From contig JABEUQ010000024.1 in assembly GCA_013044265.1 (NCBI GenBank), positions 1-42,790 of the forward strand: 42,790 nt of DNA, in the 5' to 3' direction. Made by a program: the position numbers and the translations under genes. The DNA is from Acidimicrobiaceae bacterium (GTDB lineage Bacteria; Actinomycetota; Acidimicrobiia; Acidimicrobiales; RAAP-2). Each line of letters starts with the position of its first letter. The stretch's first letter is position 1. The notes beneath the pieces are model-generated. The model worked only from the letters and a program-made list of their open reading frames with translations, did no database searches and had not been told where the DNA came from. Shown piece by piece: positions 16,770 through 30,891 of this stretch.

Positions 16770-17404
16770 TGCGCACCTTTCTGCGTAAGAGCCGCTCGGG
16801 CTCGTGTAACGAAACTAGCGACCTTGTCGTGGTCTTTGACGCCATGGCCGCTCTCCACGCCCGAGGCAACATCCACGCCCCAGGCCGATGTCAACGAGAT
16901 GGCCCGATCGACATTCTCCGGTGTCAGTCCTCCGGCGATCAACATTGGTATCTCGAAATGCAGCGCAGCGAGTGCGGCCCAGTCGTTCGCCACCCCACTA
17001 CCGGGTTGAGCGCTGTCGACAATCACCGCGACCACCGTGCTCCGCTCGTGCGCAGTCAGTGGTGGTGATTGCAAAGTGACAGCACGCACTACCTTCACCT
17101 CGCGAACCTTCAGGGCCTCGAGCAGTGATTCACTGGCGGGCTCGTGCAATTGCACCACCCGGAGTCCGTCGCGTTCCACAACTCGCACGATCTCGGAATC
17201 CTCTTGACTTCTAAAGACGCCCACGCACCACAGGTCGCGACCATATCGAGCAACGATGTCAGAGGCCGCATTACTTGATACTTGGCGCACTGAGGCCGCG
17301 TAAATCAAGCCGATTGCGTCGGCACCGGCCTCTGCGACGACGTCCGCGTCGCCCAGAGAAGTGACACCGCAGATCTTTATCCGTGGCACCGCGACATCAA
17401 TCAC
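16766..17404 (-). CDS. trpF: Phosphoribosylanthranilate isomerase
   Basis: A TIM barrel of about 212 aa that converts phosphoribosylanthranilate to CdRP, between TrpD and TrpC. It opens with the family signature RIKICGVTSLGDA containing the catalytic Cys. GLIYAASVRQV, the conserved QLH, LIAGGLTPENV and a C-terminal GVDVASGVE follow; the Asp in VDVASG is the expected acid. The start is uncertain: I propose the GTG at 17404, overlapping the end of trpC by 8 nt. Confidence 0.92.
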   Translation of the reverse strand: MIDVAVPRIKICGVTSLGDADVVAEAGADAIGLIYAASVRQVSSNAASDIVARYGRDLWCVGVFRSQEDSEIVRVVERDGLRVVQLHEPASESLLEALKVREVKVVRAVTLQSPPLTAHERSTVVAVIVDSAQPGSGVANDWAALAALHFEIPMLIAGGLTPENVDRAISLTSAWGVDVASGVESGHGVKDHDKVASFVTRARAALTQKGAQ

Positions 17405-19829: not shown

Positions 19830-20012
19830 CTAATGCATCAACCAAGAAATTAACTGATAGATACGCCAGATGAGATAGATAATGGTGACGACGATGAAGA
19901 ATTTCCACTTGAGCGGTACTGGTTCAAGAACTTCGTCTTGCACCGACTCGCCGCAAACCTCGCAAGTGTCGCCTTCAACGGGCCGGTCACACGTGGTACA
20001 CCATTTCGCCAT
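19830..20012 (-). CDS. 60-aa zinc-ribbon membrane protein
   Basis: A small protein with two CxxC knuckles (CTTC at 5-8 and CEVC at 17-20), which should bind one zinc, then one hydrophobic segment (about 37-58) rich in Ile, Trp and Tyr. The layout suggests a membrane-anchored zinc ribbon facing the cytoplasm. Its ATG overlaps the der stop codon (TAATG), so it is translationally coupled to der and almost certainly real. I do not recognise the family. Confidence 0.75.
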   Translation of the reverse strand: MAKWCTTCDRPVEGDTCEVCGESVQDEVLEPVPLKWKFFIVVTIIYLIWRIYQLISWLMH

Positions 20013-21307
20013 TATTCGACCCGAACGCGCACTCTGATTGGAGTGGAGCCAAGTTCAAAACGCTCACGCAAAGACCGTTCGACGTAACGCATGTACGTAG
20101 AGGGCAACTTCCCCGCCACGAAAAGAGTGAACGTTGGCGGCTCCGTGGCTCCCTGAACGGCGTAGCGAATCTTGCCCGTGGGCGCGGGTTGCTTGACCTG
20201 CAGGTCACGAATGGCTCGGTTGAGCGCTCCGGTGGGCACCCGTTTGACGTAGTCTGCGGCCGCCGTGGTGAGTGCCGGCAAGATGCGGTGCACGCCCTTA
20301 CCCGAAATCGCAGTCGTCTTCATGACCGGTGCATCACCTAAAAATGCGAGTTTGTCGCCTACGGACGCGAGCACCTTGTCACGTTCCTCGGTAGCGATGA
20401 GTTCCCATTTGTTGAGTACGACTAGGGCGGGGCATCCCGCCGCTGAAATTCTCTCAGCTAAACGCTGGTCCTGTCCCGTTGCTCCTACCGTGGCGTCGAT
20501 GACGAGTACGGCGATGTCGGCGCGATCTAGGGCGTCCAGACTGCGAAGGACCGCGTAGGTCTCGAGCCCCGCCTCAGTCTTAGCGCGACGACGCATTCCC
20601 GCGGTGTCGATGAAACGTATGAGGCCCATTTCGGTCTCGACCACGGTATCGATGGCGTCCCGAGTAGTGCCGGGCATGTCGTGCACGACCGATCGCTCTT
20701 CACCGATGAGTTGGTTGAACAGGGTTGATTTACCAACATTGGGGCGACCTACGATGGCCACGCGTAACGCGCCGTCCTCTTCGATGTTATCCATGAGGTT
20801 CTCGCTCGCGAGGTCACCTAAACGCGAAACGATCTCGTCGAGTAGGTCGCCCGCGCCACGTCCGTGCAGAGCACTGATGCAGTACGGATCGCCCGCTCCG
20901 AGACTCAGGAATTCCCAGCTACTCGCCTCGTGCAATGTGTCGTCGACCTTGTTGACCACCAAGAGCACGGGGCGCCCCGAGCGCAGCGCCCAGCGTGCGG
21001 CGTGCGTGTCTTCGTCCACCATGCCCGTAGTCACGTCGACCACCAGCAACACCAGATCGGCAGCATCCAACGCCGCATCGGCCTGTTTGGATACTTTTTC
21101 TTCGAGGTCGTCGCCGGCTTCGAGCCAGCCGCCGGTGTCCACGACGTCAAAGGCGACGCCATTCCACTCCACTTCGACCGATTTGCGGTCGCGGGTGACG
21201 CCACGGTGCTCCTCGACGACTGCGACACGTTTGGCCGCTAGTCGATTTACCAGTGAACTCTTACCGACGTTGGGGCGACCGACAATGACTACTTGGGGCT
21301 TCTTCAT
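20012..21307 (-). CDS. der: Ribosome-assembly GTPase Der (EngA)
   Basis: A 431-aa protein with two consecutive GTPase domains, needed for 50S subunit maturation. Domain 1 has GRPNVGKSSLVNRL, DTGG and NKVD. Domain 2 has GRPNVGKSTLFNQL, DTAGMRRR and NKWE, followed by the C-terminal KH-like domain. The start overlaps the DUF512 gene (ATGA) and the stop overlaps the zinc-ribbon gene. Confidence 0.96.
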   Translation of the reverse strand: MKKPQVVIVGRPNVGKSSLVNRLAAKRVAVVEEHRGVTRDRKSVEVEWNGVAFDVVDTGGWLEAGDDLEEKVSKQADAALDAADLVLLVVDVTTGMVDEDTHAARWALRSGRPVLLVVNKVDDTLHEASSWEFLSLGAGDPYCISALHGRGAGDLLDEIVSRLGDLASENLMDNIEEDGALRVAIVGRPNVGKSTLFNQLIGEERSVVHDMPGTTRDAIDTVVETEMGLIRFIDTAGMRRRAKTEAGLETYAVLRSLDALDRADIAVLVIDATVGATGQDQRLAERISAAGCPALVVLNKWELIATEERDKVLASVGDKLAFLGDAPVMKTTAISGKGVHRILPALTTAAADYVKRVPTGALNRAIRDLQVKQPAPTGKIRYAVQGATEPPTFTLFVAGKLPSTYMRYVERSLRERFELGSTPIRVRVRVE

Positions 21308-22689
21308 GAATGCACCAGTCCTTTCGTGCGCACGTGTTCTAACACGGAGCGCAAATCTTGACCGGTGGTGCGAACGATCTTCACCGGATGGGGTAGATCC
21401 TCGACACTCAGACCATCGAGGAAGCGACCCTCGGACAGACAGACGTCGGGAAGCAGGCAGGTGGTCGTGGTGGGCACGTCGGCGAGCGCACGCTGGATAT
21501 CTTGCCCAGTCATCAGTCCCGCGACCTTGATGTTGCCACCGAAATAGCGATTCTCCACGGTGATGATCCGTACGTCGTCGTAGCGATGTCGATCGAGGAG
21601 GTCTCGCAAAATAGGCGCGGCGTACTCGCCAGTGAGCAGCGCAACGTCTCGCCCCTCAGAAATGTCACTCGTTCGCACTTCAGGGGTGCGTGGTGCGCGA
21701 TATCCCAGTGCCGGAGCCCCGTCAACGGATTGGAAGAAGCCGGTGCCGAGCCGGTCCATGACTGCGTGTCCAGCGAAACTCTCGACGAATGCGGCGACGA
21801 GCCCGATGCCGTTCTCTGCTTGATCGAGAGATTCGAATTCCCCCGCGGGTTGGGGCGTGCGTCCCGCAACCAAATAGAACTCATCGGAGGCGTACACGCT
21901 GACGCGTCCGAATAGTTCTTTGGTGAGCCGTCGATATTTCTCGGCAAGTTCGATGACGCTGTTCGCCTCTTGCGAAGTGTGCGAACGCATGGTCTCTTCC
22001 ATCGTGAAGTCGCTGACCCCCACCGGTACTAGAGCGATGGTCACTAGTTCGGGGTAGAGCGTCACAACGTCTTGGAGTGTGCGTTCGAGTTCGTCGCCGT
22101 CATTGATGCCCGGACACACCACTACTTGGGCGTGCACCTCGATGCCAGCCTTGAGAAGTTCACGTAGCCAGCGCAAACTGGTGGCGCCACGGGGATTGCG
22201 CAGCATCTCGGCGCGCAGTTCAGGGTTCGTTGTATGAATCGACACGTAGAGGGGTGAAAGTTTCTCCTCGATCACTCTTTCGAGATCGAATTCGGTGAAC
22301 CGTGTCAGGGTCGTGTAATTACCGTAGAGGAAGGAGAGACGAAAATCATCGTCCTTGACGTAGAGCGAGCGCCTCATGCCCTTGGGCAGTTGGTAGATGA
22401 AGCAAAAGGTGCAGTGATTGTCACAGGTTCGAATGCGGTCAAATACAGCGGAATCGATGGAGAGTCCGAGCGGCTGTCCCACTTCTTTGGAGATCATCAC
22501 CTTGTGACGGAGAGCACGTCCTTCGCGCTGTAGCACCAGAGAAACAATCTCTCCGTCAATCAACTGCTGGTACTCGATGATGTCGGTGGGCTCGCGTCCG
22601 TTGATCGAGATCAACTCGTCACCCACCGCGACGTCGGTCCCGGCAGCGGGCGACGAGGCTGAAATGGAAGAAATACGTACACCCGACAC
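21304..22689 (-). CDS. DUF512-family radical SAM protein with PDZ domain
   Basis: A 461-aa protein: an N-terminal PDZ-like segment (about 1-70, AVGDELISINGREP), then a cluster-binding CDNHCTFCF (Cx3Cx2C) near residue 90, a radical SAM-like barrel, and the C-terminal DUF512 domain. Members are often next to der in other phyla, as here (ATGA overlap). The reaction is unknown; the association hints at ribosome or tRNA maturation. GTG start, apparently leaderless from TTGCCA-16-TAGGCT. Confidence 0.88.
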   Translation of the reverse strand: MSGVRISSISASSPAAGTDVAVGDELISINGREPTDIIEYQQLIDGEIVSLVLQREGRALRHKVMISKEVGQPLGLSIDSAVFDRIRTCDNHCTFCFIYQLPKGMRRSLYVKDDDFRLSFLYGNYTTLTRFTEFDLERVIEEKLSPLYVSIHTTNPELRAEMLRNPRGATSLRWLRELLKAGIEVHAQVVVCPGINDGDELERTLQDVVTLYPELVTIALVPVGVSDFTMEETMRSHTSQEANSVIELAEKYRRLTKELFGRVSVYASDEFYLVAGRTPQPAGEFESLDQAENGIGLVAAFVESFAGHAVMDRLGTGFFQSVDGAPALGYRAPRTPEVRTSDISEGRDVALLTGEYAAPILRDLLDRHRYDDVRIITVENRYFGGNIKVAGLMTGQDIQRALADVPTTTTCLLPDVCLSEGRFLDGLSVEDLPHPVKIVRTTGQDLRSVLEHVRTKGLVHS

Positions 22690-22695
22690 GGGTAC

Positions 22696-22723
22696 AGCCT
22701 AGGTCGACACTCAAGATTGGCAA
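22696..22723 (-). promoter_or_regulatory. Promoter of the DUF512-der operon
   Basis: On the minus strand, TTGCCA (plus 22718-22723), 16 bp, TAGGCT (plus 22696-22701), then 6 nt to the GTG. It interleaves with the ispH promoter; the two -10 boxes form an inverted repeat (AGCCTA...TAGGCT). Confidence 0.6.
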
Positions 22724-22731
22724 ACTAGGCT
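22704..22731 (+). promoter_or_regulatory. Promoter of ispH
   Basis: TCGACA (22704-22709), 16 bp, TAGGCT (22726-22731), then 7 nt to the GTG start. No Shine-Dalgarno sequence, so the message is probably leaderless. It has the same -10 box and spacer length as the opposing promoter. Confidence 0.6.
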
Positions 22732-22738
22732 GATTGTC

Positions 22739-23773
22739 GTGAGTGTCGAACGAGTAGTGCTGGCGTCACCAAGAGGCTTCTGCGCTGGAGTAGAGAAGGC
22801 GATCAAGGCTCTTGATTGGATGACTCGGGTCTTTGATCCACCGGTCTACTGCTATCACGAGATAGTTCATAATCAGGTGGTGGTTGACCATTTTCGATCC
22901 TTAGGCGTGGTTTTCATCGATGATGTCGCCGACGCCGCTCCCGGAGCACCCTTGATGTTGAGTGCGCACGGTTCGCCACCCAACGTCATTGAGGCAGCTC
23001 GTGCATCGGGTGGTGCCGTCGTCGACGCAGTCTGTCCGCTCGTTACCAAGGTGCATCACGAGCTCAAAGTACGCGCACGCAAGGGCTACACGGTTCTCTA
23101 CGTAGGTCATGAGGGTCACGAGGAAGCGGTCGGCACAATGGCGGTGGCTCCCGAGGCGGTAGAACTCATACAATCCGTGCAGGACATCGATCGCGCGGCC
23201 CAACGTCCAGGACCCTATGCTCTGCTCTCGCAGACCACGCTGAGCGAGGACGAATGGTCCCACTTGCGCGAATACGCCCTCTCTACGATTCCTGATATTT
23301 GGATGCCAAATCGAAGTGACCTATGCTTCGCAACCACCAATCGACAAGGAGCTTTGCGCGAAATTGCCTCGTCGGCCGACGCCGTCGTCGTCATTGGTTC
23401 GGCCAATTCCTCAAATACTGTTGCTCTCACTGACGTGGCCCGTTCGGTGGGCAGCCCTCGCGTGTTCCGCGTGAACGGAGCGAGTGAATTGCCTAACGAT
23501 CTCAATGGAGTGGTGGCCGTCACTGCCGGGGCTTCCGCCCCTGAGTCTTTGGTTACCCAAGTCGTCGAATACCTCAACGCCTCCCAGGGTGTGGACACCT
23601 TTGAATTCACTACCGAGGACGAGTATTTCCCACCTCCTCCGGAGTTGCGCGAGATCTTGCGCGCACTCAGTGCCACGCTGGACGTCGCATTGGGTGTGCC
23701 CAGAGCGAGCCATTTCGACGGTCAGGCTGATCGGGGATTTACTGCTGCACAAGTGTTGTCTCCAATCACGTAG
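22739..23773 (+). CDS. ispH: 4-Hydroxy-3-methylbut-2-enyl diphosphate reductase
   Basis: A 344-aa [4Fe-4S] enzyme, last step of the MEP isoprenoid pathway, yielding IPP and DMAPP from HMBPP. The three cluster cysteines are Cys15 (PRGFCAGV), Cys99 (VDAVCPLVTKVH) and Cys196 (SDLCFATTNRQ). The proton-relay Glu is in GHEGHEEAVGT, and TAGASAPE is near the C-terminus. GTG start, leaderless layout. No other MEP gene is in the window. Confidence 0.95.
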   Translation: MSVERVVLASPRGFCAGVEKAIKALDWMTRVFDPPVYCYHEIVHNQVVVDHFRSLGVVFIDDVADAAPGAPLMLSAHGSPPNVIEAARASGGAVVDAVCPLVTKVHHELKVRARKGYTVLYVGHEGHEEAVGTMAVAPEAVELIQSVQDIDRAAQRPGPYALLSQTTLSEDEWSHLREYALSTIPDIWMPNRSDLCFATTNRQGALREIASSADAVVVIGSANSSNTVALTDVARSVGSPRVFRVNGASELPNDLNGVVAVTAGASAPESLVTQVVEYLNASQGVDTFEFTTEDEYFPPPPELREILRALSATLDVALGVPRASHFDGQADRGFTAAQVLSPIT

Positions 23774-30073: not shown

Positions 30074-30839
30074 AAGAATCGATTCCTTCCAGGTCCAATC
30101 GTGAATCGGCATCAATCCACGCGATCTCTACGTCGCCGAAGGTGCCACCTTGTCCGAGCTCGATATGTCCGAGCTTGCACAGTTCAAGAAGCGCGAGGAA
30201 ATGCACGATGATCTCGATGCGTGTTTCGAGCTCAGCAGTGAGGTCGCGGAACGAAATACGTCCCAAGGATGGCAAGCGTTGCGCGAGAACGACGACGGTC
30301 TCGGCGACGGTAACCGCATCAACGGTAACGTGATTGAGTCGAACGACAGGAACCGGCTTCTCTTCAATGCCGCGCAAATAGGCGGCTGCGAGTTGTGCCG
30401 TGGTGACGCCGGCGAGGAGATCTGGCGGCTGAATGACGAATCCATCGTCAATTCCGCGCAGGCGTGAGAATGATTTCGCCGCGCGCTCGAAGAGTCCGAC
30501 GAAGGAATCGGCCAGGCTGGAGTAGGTACGCAACTCGAGAAGACGTGCGAGCAGCACGTCGCGCTCCTCCCAGCCAACGAATTCCTCATCGGGCTCAGTG
30601 CTGTCACGACCGGGCAGAAGGCGCTGACTCTTGAGTTCGAGCAAAATGGCGGCGATCAACAGGAATTCCGAGAGCTCGTCGACCGCGAGAACGATTGTCT
30701 CGTCGCGCAGGGTACCGACGAAGGCATCTACGACAGGGGCTAACGGGACATCGAGAATATCGAGGTCGTGGCTGCTGATGAGTTGCAGTAGGACTTCGAT
30801 GGGTCCGCTGAAAGACGGCGTCGTCACGACGTAGGTCAC
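30063..30839 (-). CDS. scpA: Segregation and condensation protein A
   Basis: A 258-aa kleisin that bridges Smc heads. The N-terminal FSGPIEVLLQLISSHDLDILDVPLAPV is the family signature (shown in part). The middle carries LLIAAILLELKSQRLLPG and the C-terminus a winged helix. GTG start, divergent from trpS across 52 bp. First gene of the scpA-to-plsC operon. Confidence 0.93.
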   Translation of the reverse strand: MTYVVTTPSFSGPIEVLLQLISSHDLDILDVPLAPVVDAFVGTLRDETIVLAVDELSEFLLIAAILLELKSQRLLPGRDSTEPDEEFVGWEERDVLLARLLELRTYSSLADSFVGLFERAAKSFSRLRGIDDGFVIQPPDLLAGVTTAQLAAAYLRGIEEKPVPVVRLNHVTVDAVTVAETVVVLAQRLPSLGRISFRDLTAELETRIEIIVHFLALLELCKLGHIELGQGGTFGDVEIAWIDADSRLDLEGIDSYEG

Positions 30840-30879
30840 GCAGCAACACTAGTAAATCCCTACCTACGCTCCCCTCCTC

Positions 30880-30885
30880 TACGAT
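30880..30885 (+). promoter_or_regulatory. -10 box of trpS (leaderless arrangement)
   Basis: TACGAT ends 6 nt before the trpS ATG; no ribosome site precedes it. The -35 is not recognisable. Confidence 0.45.
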
Positions 30886-30891
30886 TATTGG

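Follow-up and report, generated by a model that had tools for sequence, protein, structure and literature searches.

In M. tuberculosis, promoters carry a TANNNT −10 element without a conserved −35 element, leaderless genes make up 26% of those with a primary start site, and divergent promoters in close juxtaposition are described as common (PMC3898074); a figure legend of the same paper presents prpD and its regulator as a divergent pair in which both mRNAs are leaderless. In E. coli, the basal activity of five bidirectional promoters was too low for competition between the two directions, and competition was seen on activation (PMC12825309). As described there, such promoters share one −10 element, the commonest distances between their start sites are 18, 10 and 23 bp, and separate divergent promoters fall outside the category. 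In the CrtR/crt region of C. glutamicum, crtR is reported to be leaderless, the spacer is 200 bp in length and control is exerted by a MarR-type repressor (PMC5401885). Our searches of the open-licence PMC literature found no paper joining leaderless, Acidimicrobi and promoter, and nothing on the ispH/DUF512 pair was met in the titles and abstract openings of related papers.

We analyzed the junction between ispH and a DUF512 gene within a window of 42,790 nucleotides (the whole stretch of DNA that was analyzed), which comes from a source genome of 2.8 Mb in 246 contigs. The features of the junction and of its flanking genes are as follows.

20012-21307, minus strand: der (EngA GTPase)
21304-22689, minus strand: PDZ / radical SAM-like / DUF512 gene; its GTG (22689-22687) is the predicted transcription start
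22690-22738, 49 bp: divergent promoter region of DUF512 and ispH, kept in relatives
22696-22701, minus strand: TAGGCT, −10 box of DUF512-der, 6 nt from the DUF512 GTG
22702-22703, minus strand: CC directly upstream of the DUF512 −10 box, near-invariant where the boxes are 24-25 bp apart
22704-22709, plus strand: TCGACA, previously proposed −35 of ispH, 16 bp from its −10 box; 5 of 6 positions match TTGACA; not conserved
22718-22723, minus strand: TTGCCA, previously proposed −35 of DUF512, 16 bp from its −10 box; 5 of 6 positions match TTGACA; not conserved
22724-22725, plus strand: AC directly upstream of the ispH −10 box, near-invariant where the boxes are 24-25 bp apart
22726-22731, plus strand: TAGGCT, −10 box of ispH, 7 nt from the ispH GTG
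22739-23773, plus strand: ispH (LytB, PF02401); its GTG (22739-22741) is the predicted transcription start

The initial annotation of this DNA had placed the two starts 49 bp apart, with a TAGGCT −10 box 6-7 nt before each GTG, and a base-by-base reading agreed with it at every coordinate, the two boxes being separated by 24 bp. It had also spoken of two operons, a description that fits the minus strand, where the DUF512 frame shares 4 nt with that of der, but not the plus strand, where ispH looks like a single gene and the next plus-strand gene begins 182 bp downstream. By Pfam, the neighbours of ispH are DUF512 and a glycosyltransferase, neither of which is a regulator. A perfect 10-bp inverted repeat (TCGACACTCA at 22704-22713 and TGAGTGTCGA at 22740-22749) was considered as an operator and dropped as a chance match, since its right arm lies in the start of ispH and its left arm, over the supposed −35, is absent from the spacers of the closest relatives (L010-L013, compared by eye).

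For the comparison with relatives, IspH was searched against 61 genomes of the genus, 58 of which had a match, the junctions were fetched, and these were supplemented with named genomes and with subsets of the samples for family, order and class. The family, order and class samples comprise best-scoring or hand-picked matches only (35, 56 and 23 new loci, respectively), the class search having yielded the loci of its best 30 places from 75 genomes with a match; the named relatives matched by IspH are MAGs titled mostly Acidimicrobiaceae, Acidimicrobiales, Actinomycetes or uncultured actinobacterium. The two genes were divergent in 256 of 280 loci, a count in which some junctions were fetched twice and which takes in a few gaps of 849-1737 bp (L261, L266, L267, L277 with its duplicate L292, and L285). 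Among the remaining loci, DUF512 was absent from the fetched stretch in 21 and the arrangement was unresolvable in three, and same-strand genes were found in none. Nine loci of the class search belong to orders other than that of the window, and all nine were divergent, while two of the 59 genus loci (L023 and L052) had no DUF512 upstream of ispH. With these two and the two junctions that offered no usable spacer (L020 and L065) dropped, 55 of the 59 genus junctions were retained. Merging identical spacers and excluding those that contained N or were shorter than 20 nt left 186 distinct spacers, 185 of which fall into sets of 68 genus-level (the window's own included), 95 family/order/class and 22 named-only spacers; the genus-level set includes L053, a highly divergent row (spacing of 8 bp, branch of 3.4 on the tree) that probably does not belong to the genus. 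A further IspH-like sequence was matched in several relatives, at about 39-46% identity; the open frames that contain it span approximately 400-1300 codons, and some carry an in-frame stop within the matched stretch. Four loci titled Acidobacteria, Acidobacteriota or Candidatus Saccharibacteria (L068, L080, L096 and L131) have an actinobacterial ispH, 74-88% identical, and these titles may be wrong.

Alignment of the spacer among relatives, which had been proposed as a check, showed that the boxes are conserved. TANNNT stood 6 or 7 nt from both starts in all 68 distinct genus-level spacers, and the box was TAGGCT in 65 of the 68 on the DUF512 side and in 58 on the ispH side. When a single start choice was used for the 95 spacers from outside the genus, the ispH box was present in 79, the DUF512 box in 71 and the two together in 63; some of the 32 that lacked one or both boxes look like wrong start calls. 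A permissive scan (in-frame starts within 12 codons, boxes 6-8 nt away) detected both boxes in 91 of 117 spacers, i.e., the 95 outside spacers plus the 22 named-only ones, some of which may lie within the genus. Outside the genus the commonest boxes were TAGCCT, TACCCT and TAACCT for ispH and TAGCCT, TATCCT and TAGACT for DUF512. At the junction, TAGGCT is the box of the genus, and the other genera of the order mostly have TAGCCT; whole-genome tallies of the box followed by a start, raw and unnormalized, show this tendency in many genomes but not in all, with the reverse in G069, G175 and G178. The close relative L058, whose IspH N-terminus is 90% identical, has a spacer of 71 bp with an ACTAGG remnant near the old box position and TAGGCT before a moved ispH start.

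The same signature was then sought in the source genome itself, using a 424-kb sample (the window and 20 further stretches, with 371 predicted ORFs and 1888 candidate starts). TANNNT occurrences before candidate starts numbered 50 at a distance of 6 nt and 23 at 7 nt, whereas distances of 14-40 nt gave 8.7 each on average. TAGGCT was the top box at 6-7 nt, with 13 of its 40 sampled copies sitting there, and the whole genome contains 158 copies of TAGGCT and 44 matches of TAGGCT-N6-7-RTG (ATG or GTG). The TANNNT peak and the TAGGCT counts indicate that this genome routinely uses putative leaderless −10 promoters and favours TAGGCT as their box. Both boxes of the junction lie at the distance of 6-7 nt from the start that is typical of TANNNT-type leaderless actinobacterial promoters. 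Conservation and the genome-wide −10 signature support the two facing leaderless promoters of the initial annotation; with the starts placed by box position, both transcripts are predicted to be leaderless and to begin at or beside the GTG.

The −35 elements fared differently. The two promoters had been described as interleaved, each −35 lying between the two −10 boxes, and both hexamers are indeed in the sequence, but they are not conserved. When the best match to TTGACA at a spacing of 15-19 bp was scored and compared with shuffled sequence, the genus-level spacers did no better than the shuffles (ispH, 2.50 vs 2.65; DUF512, 2.82 vs 2.73 of 6), and spacers from outside the genus equalled them (ispH, 2.52 vs 2.52; DUF512, 2.51 vs 2.51 of 6). 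The window's spacer is the only one that scores 5 of 6 on both sides; the six close or named relatives compared with it score 2-4. Moreover, where the boxes are 7-18 bp apart, a normally spaced −35 hexamer does not fit between them. Over the 73 leaderless candidates of the own-genome sample there was no enriched column at −35 positions, and at least five TTGACA matches occurred in five of the 73 (two being the focal pair), compared to 1.6 in shuffles. The window's two hexamers may work in the source species, and a few promoters of its genome may use a −35; across the genus, outside and named sets the junction lacks a conserved −35, as does the leaderless actinobacterial class. In a genome of this kind, a −35 identified by visual inspection should be checked in relatives before it is accepted.

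Both boxes were also present in nine of 69 divergent neighbour pairs of the own-genome sample, and in six of these nine, the focal pair included, the gap is 43-58 bp. Two others of these pairs served as controls, each searched in 61 genomes with the best 30 loci measured.

30840-30891 of the same window, 52 bp: scpA/trpS spacer; starts at 30839 (scpA, minus strand, TAGTGT) and 30892 (trpS, plus strand, TACGAT)
17086-17128 of locus L160, 43 bp between starts: ctaB/ctaA spacer; the boxes of its two sides are TAGACT and TAGGCT

For scpA/trpS, both boxes were found in 29 of 29 measured genus loci (L354, which has no trpS start, was left out), and for ctaB/ctaA in 29 of 30, with the boxes 15-18 bp apart in 28 of the 29. 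The matching first 30 genus loci of ispH/DUF512 gave 28 of 28, two rows having been left out (one without DUF512 and one without a start). Within the genus, box separations are mostly 24-25 bp for ispH/DUF512, 17-18 bp for ctaB/ctaA and 28-33 bp for scpA/trpS. Since scpA/trpS and ctaB/ctaA have the same layout, the focal pair is one of several, and because other gene pairs use it too, the layout probably reflects economical packing of genes and not a dedicated switch.

The orientation of ispH was followed across the phylum by searching the DUF512 protein against 100 genomes, of which 38 had a match and the loci of 30 were fetched. In all eight Acidimicrobiia loci of this sample ispH was divergent from DUF512. 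Among the 22 loci from other classes, 12 had ispH just upstream of DUF512 in the same direction (der also ran that way in 10 of these, and had no match in two), and 10 had no ispH within the fetched flank. Because the other classes with an adjoining ispH run both genes one way, ispH was probably turned round in an ancestor of Acidimicrobiia within an older ispH-DUF512-der tandem, a direction of change deduced from a small sample, and this flip would have created the shared promoter region.

The distance between the boxes is 20-26 bp in 50 of the 68 genus-level spacers and at least 30 bp in 17, and it ranges from 7 to 128 bp (one of 825 bp) in the 63 outside spacers that have both boxes. On a DUF512 tree of 66 of the 68 rows (two DUF512 sequences were too short), the box centres are 30-31 bp apart in 41 rows. 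In these 41 rows (the 24-25 bp class), the CC flank of the DUF512 box showed two and one tree changes and the AC flank of the ispH box one and one, compared to 7-20 at the other 22 columns counted from the DUF512 side. Both flanks mostly carry other bases in lineages with longer box spacing. Each flank was also considered as a possible −35 of the opposite promoter, by contrasting short with long spacings and by means of independent pairs on the tree. The direction fitted: among three pairs from well-supported branches (five on all branches), an average of 2.0 and 1.6 agreed and 0.0 opposed it. These pairs are too few for significance, and the CC and AC flanks are not alike. A bare −10 account leaves the conserved two-base flanks unexplained. 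Spacing itself changed 13 times among the 48 short-spacing rows, and most single columns changed 7-20 times. The idea that selection locks the spacing was set aside, as 13 changes are, in our judgement, not far from ordinary indel rates. It is doubtful, though it deserves some weight, that selection holds the separation in Acidimicrobiia divergent pairs of essential genes on −10-only leaderless promoters, with two co-adapted upstream bases, such that a polymerase at one promoter either reads the second promoter or excludes it, thereby setting a fixed expression ratio without a regulator.

Taken together, we hold with good confidence that the junction consists of back-to-back leaderless promoters with probable exclusion by geometry and largely independent output, and that it probably originated by the flip of ispH. 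Two ordinary housekeeping-sigma promoters (the sigma factor being a presumption) would each be recognized mainly via the −10 box and would start transcription at or beside the GTG, giving leaderless mRNAs. RNA polymerase has a footprint of about −55 to +20. With footprints of this commonly assumed size and the predicted starts, the two promoters overlap by geometry: a polymerase bound for one gene would cover the −10 box and the start of the other, so that only one initiation could occur at a time. From this geometry alone, one polymerase at a time is likely. Most likely, each promoter would be transcribed at a steady level and largely independently of the other, any coupling being weak in the absence of strong activation on one side, and the layout would persist as compact packing. 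We infer both the exclusion and the independence of output.

The initial annotation went further and proposed that mutual exclusion links isoprenoid synthesis to ribosome assembly, i.e., a selected switch in which the promoters exclude each other via interleaved −35s and the two processes are opposed. We regard this as improbable, even though footprints on boxes 24 bp apart would overlap almost wholly, most genus-level spacers fall at 20-26 bp, and the E. coli promoters did compete when one direction was activated (PMC12825309). The −35 hexamers on which it depends are not conserved, the distance between the boxes reaches 30 bp or more within the genus and varies widely outside it, unrelated gene pairs share the layout, and basal competition was absent from the E. 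coli tests as described in that paper. A slightly poorer candidate still is that the two boxes and their flanks form an inverted repeat serving as the operator of a regulator that controls both genes. The recurrent 30-31 bp between box centres and the conserved bases beyond the hexamer would suit an operator, but no other leaderless box is as frequent as TAGGCT in the own-genome sample, any two similar −10 boxes that point away from each other give an inverted repeat anyway, and outside the genus other TANNNT boxes, often unlike between the two sides, stand at other distances. That TAGGCT lies near the starts by chance, with no promoter function, is barely credible: TANNNT is a loose motif, but it stands at two fixed distances in every one of the genus-level spacers while most columns between the boxes changed repeatedly on the tree. 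Overall, these results favour the back-to-back leaderless promoters, and the junction is an ordinary but well-conserved case of a known promoter type.

The pair offers a clean, well-conserved example of divergent leaderless promoters within Acidimicrobiia, on whose leaderless promoters our search of the open-licence PMC literature found no paper, and its natural variants, with 7-128 bp between the boxes and the same two genes, suit the measurement of polymerase exclusion versus distance. Like the CrtR/crt pair of Corynebacterium glutamicum (PMC5401885), it is an actinobacterial divergent pair around isoprenoid metabolism, but unlike the MarR-type control described there, no regulator adjoins ispH here by Pfam. 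It resembles the E. coli bidirectional promoters of PMC12825309 in that facing transcription would arise from a short stretch where one polymerase orientation excludes the other. In contrast to their single shared −10 with starts about 10-23 bp apart, the junction has two separate boxes and predicted starts about 50 bp apart, and because the E. coli promoters share one −10 and have closer starts, the two are comparable in behaviour but do not belong to the same category. The pair also resembles the leaderless pairs of M. tuberculosis, which, as reported in PMC3898074, likewise have a TANNNT −10, no conserved −35 and transcription from the start codon, the latter being predicted here. That species belongs to another class of Actinomycetota and its starts were mapped, whereas those of the ispH/DUF512 pair are deduced from the boxes, and here one such pair has been followed across its relatives.
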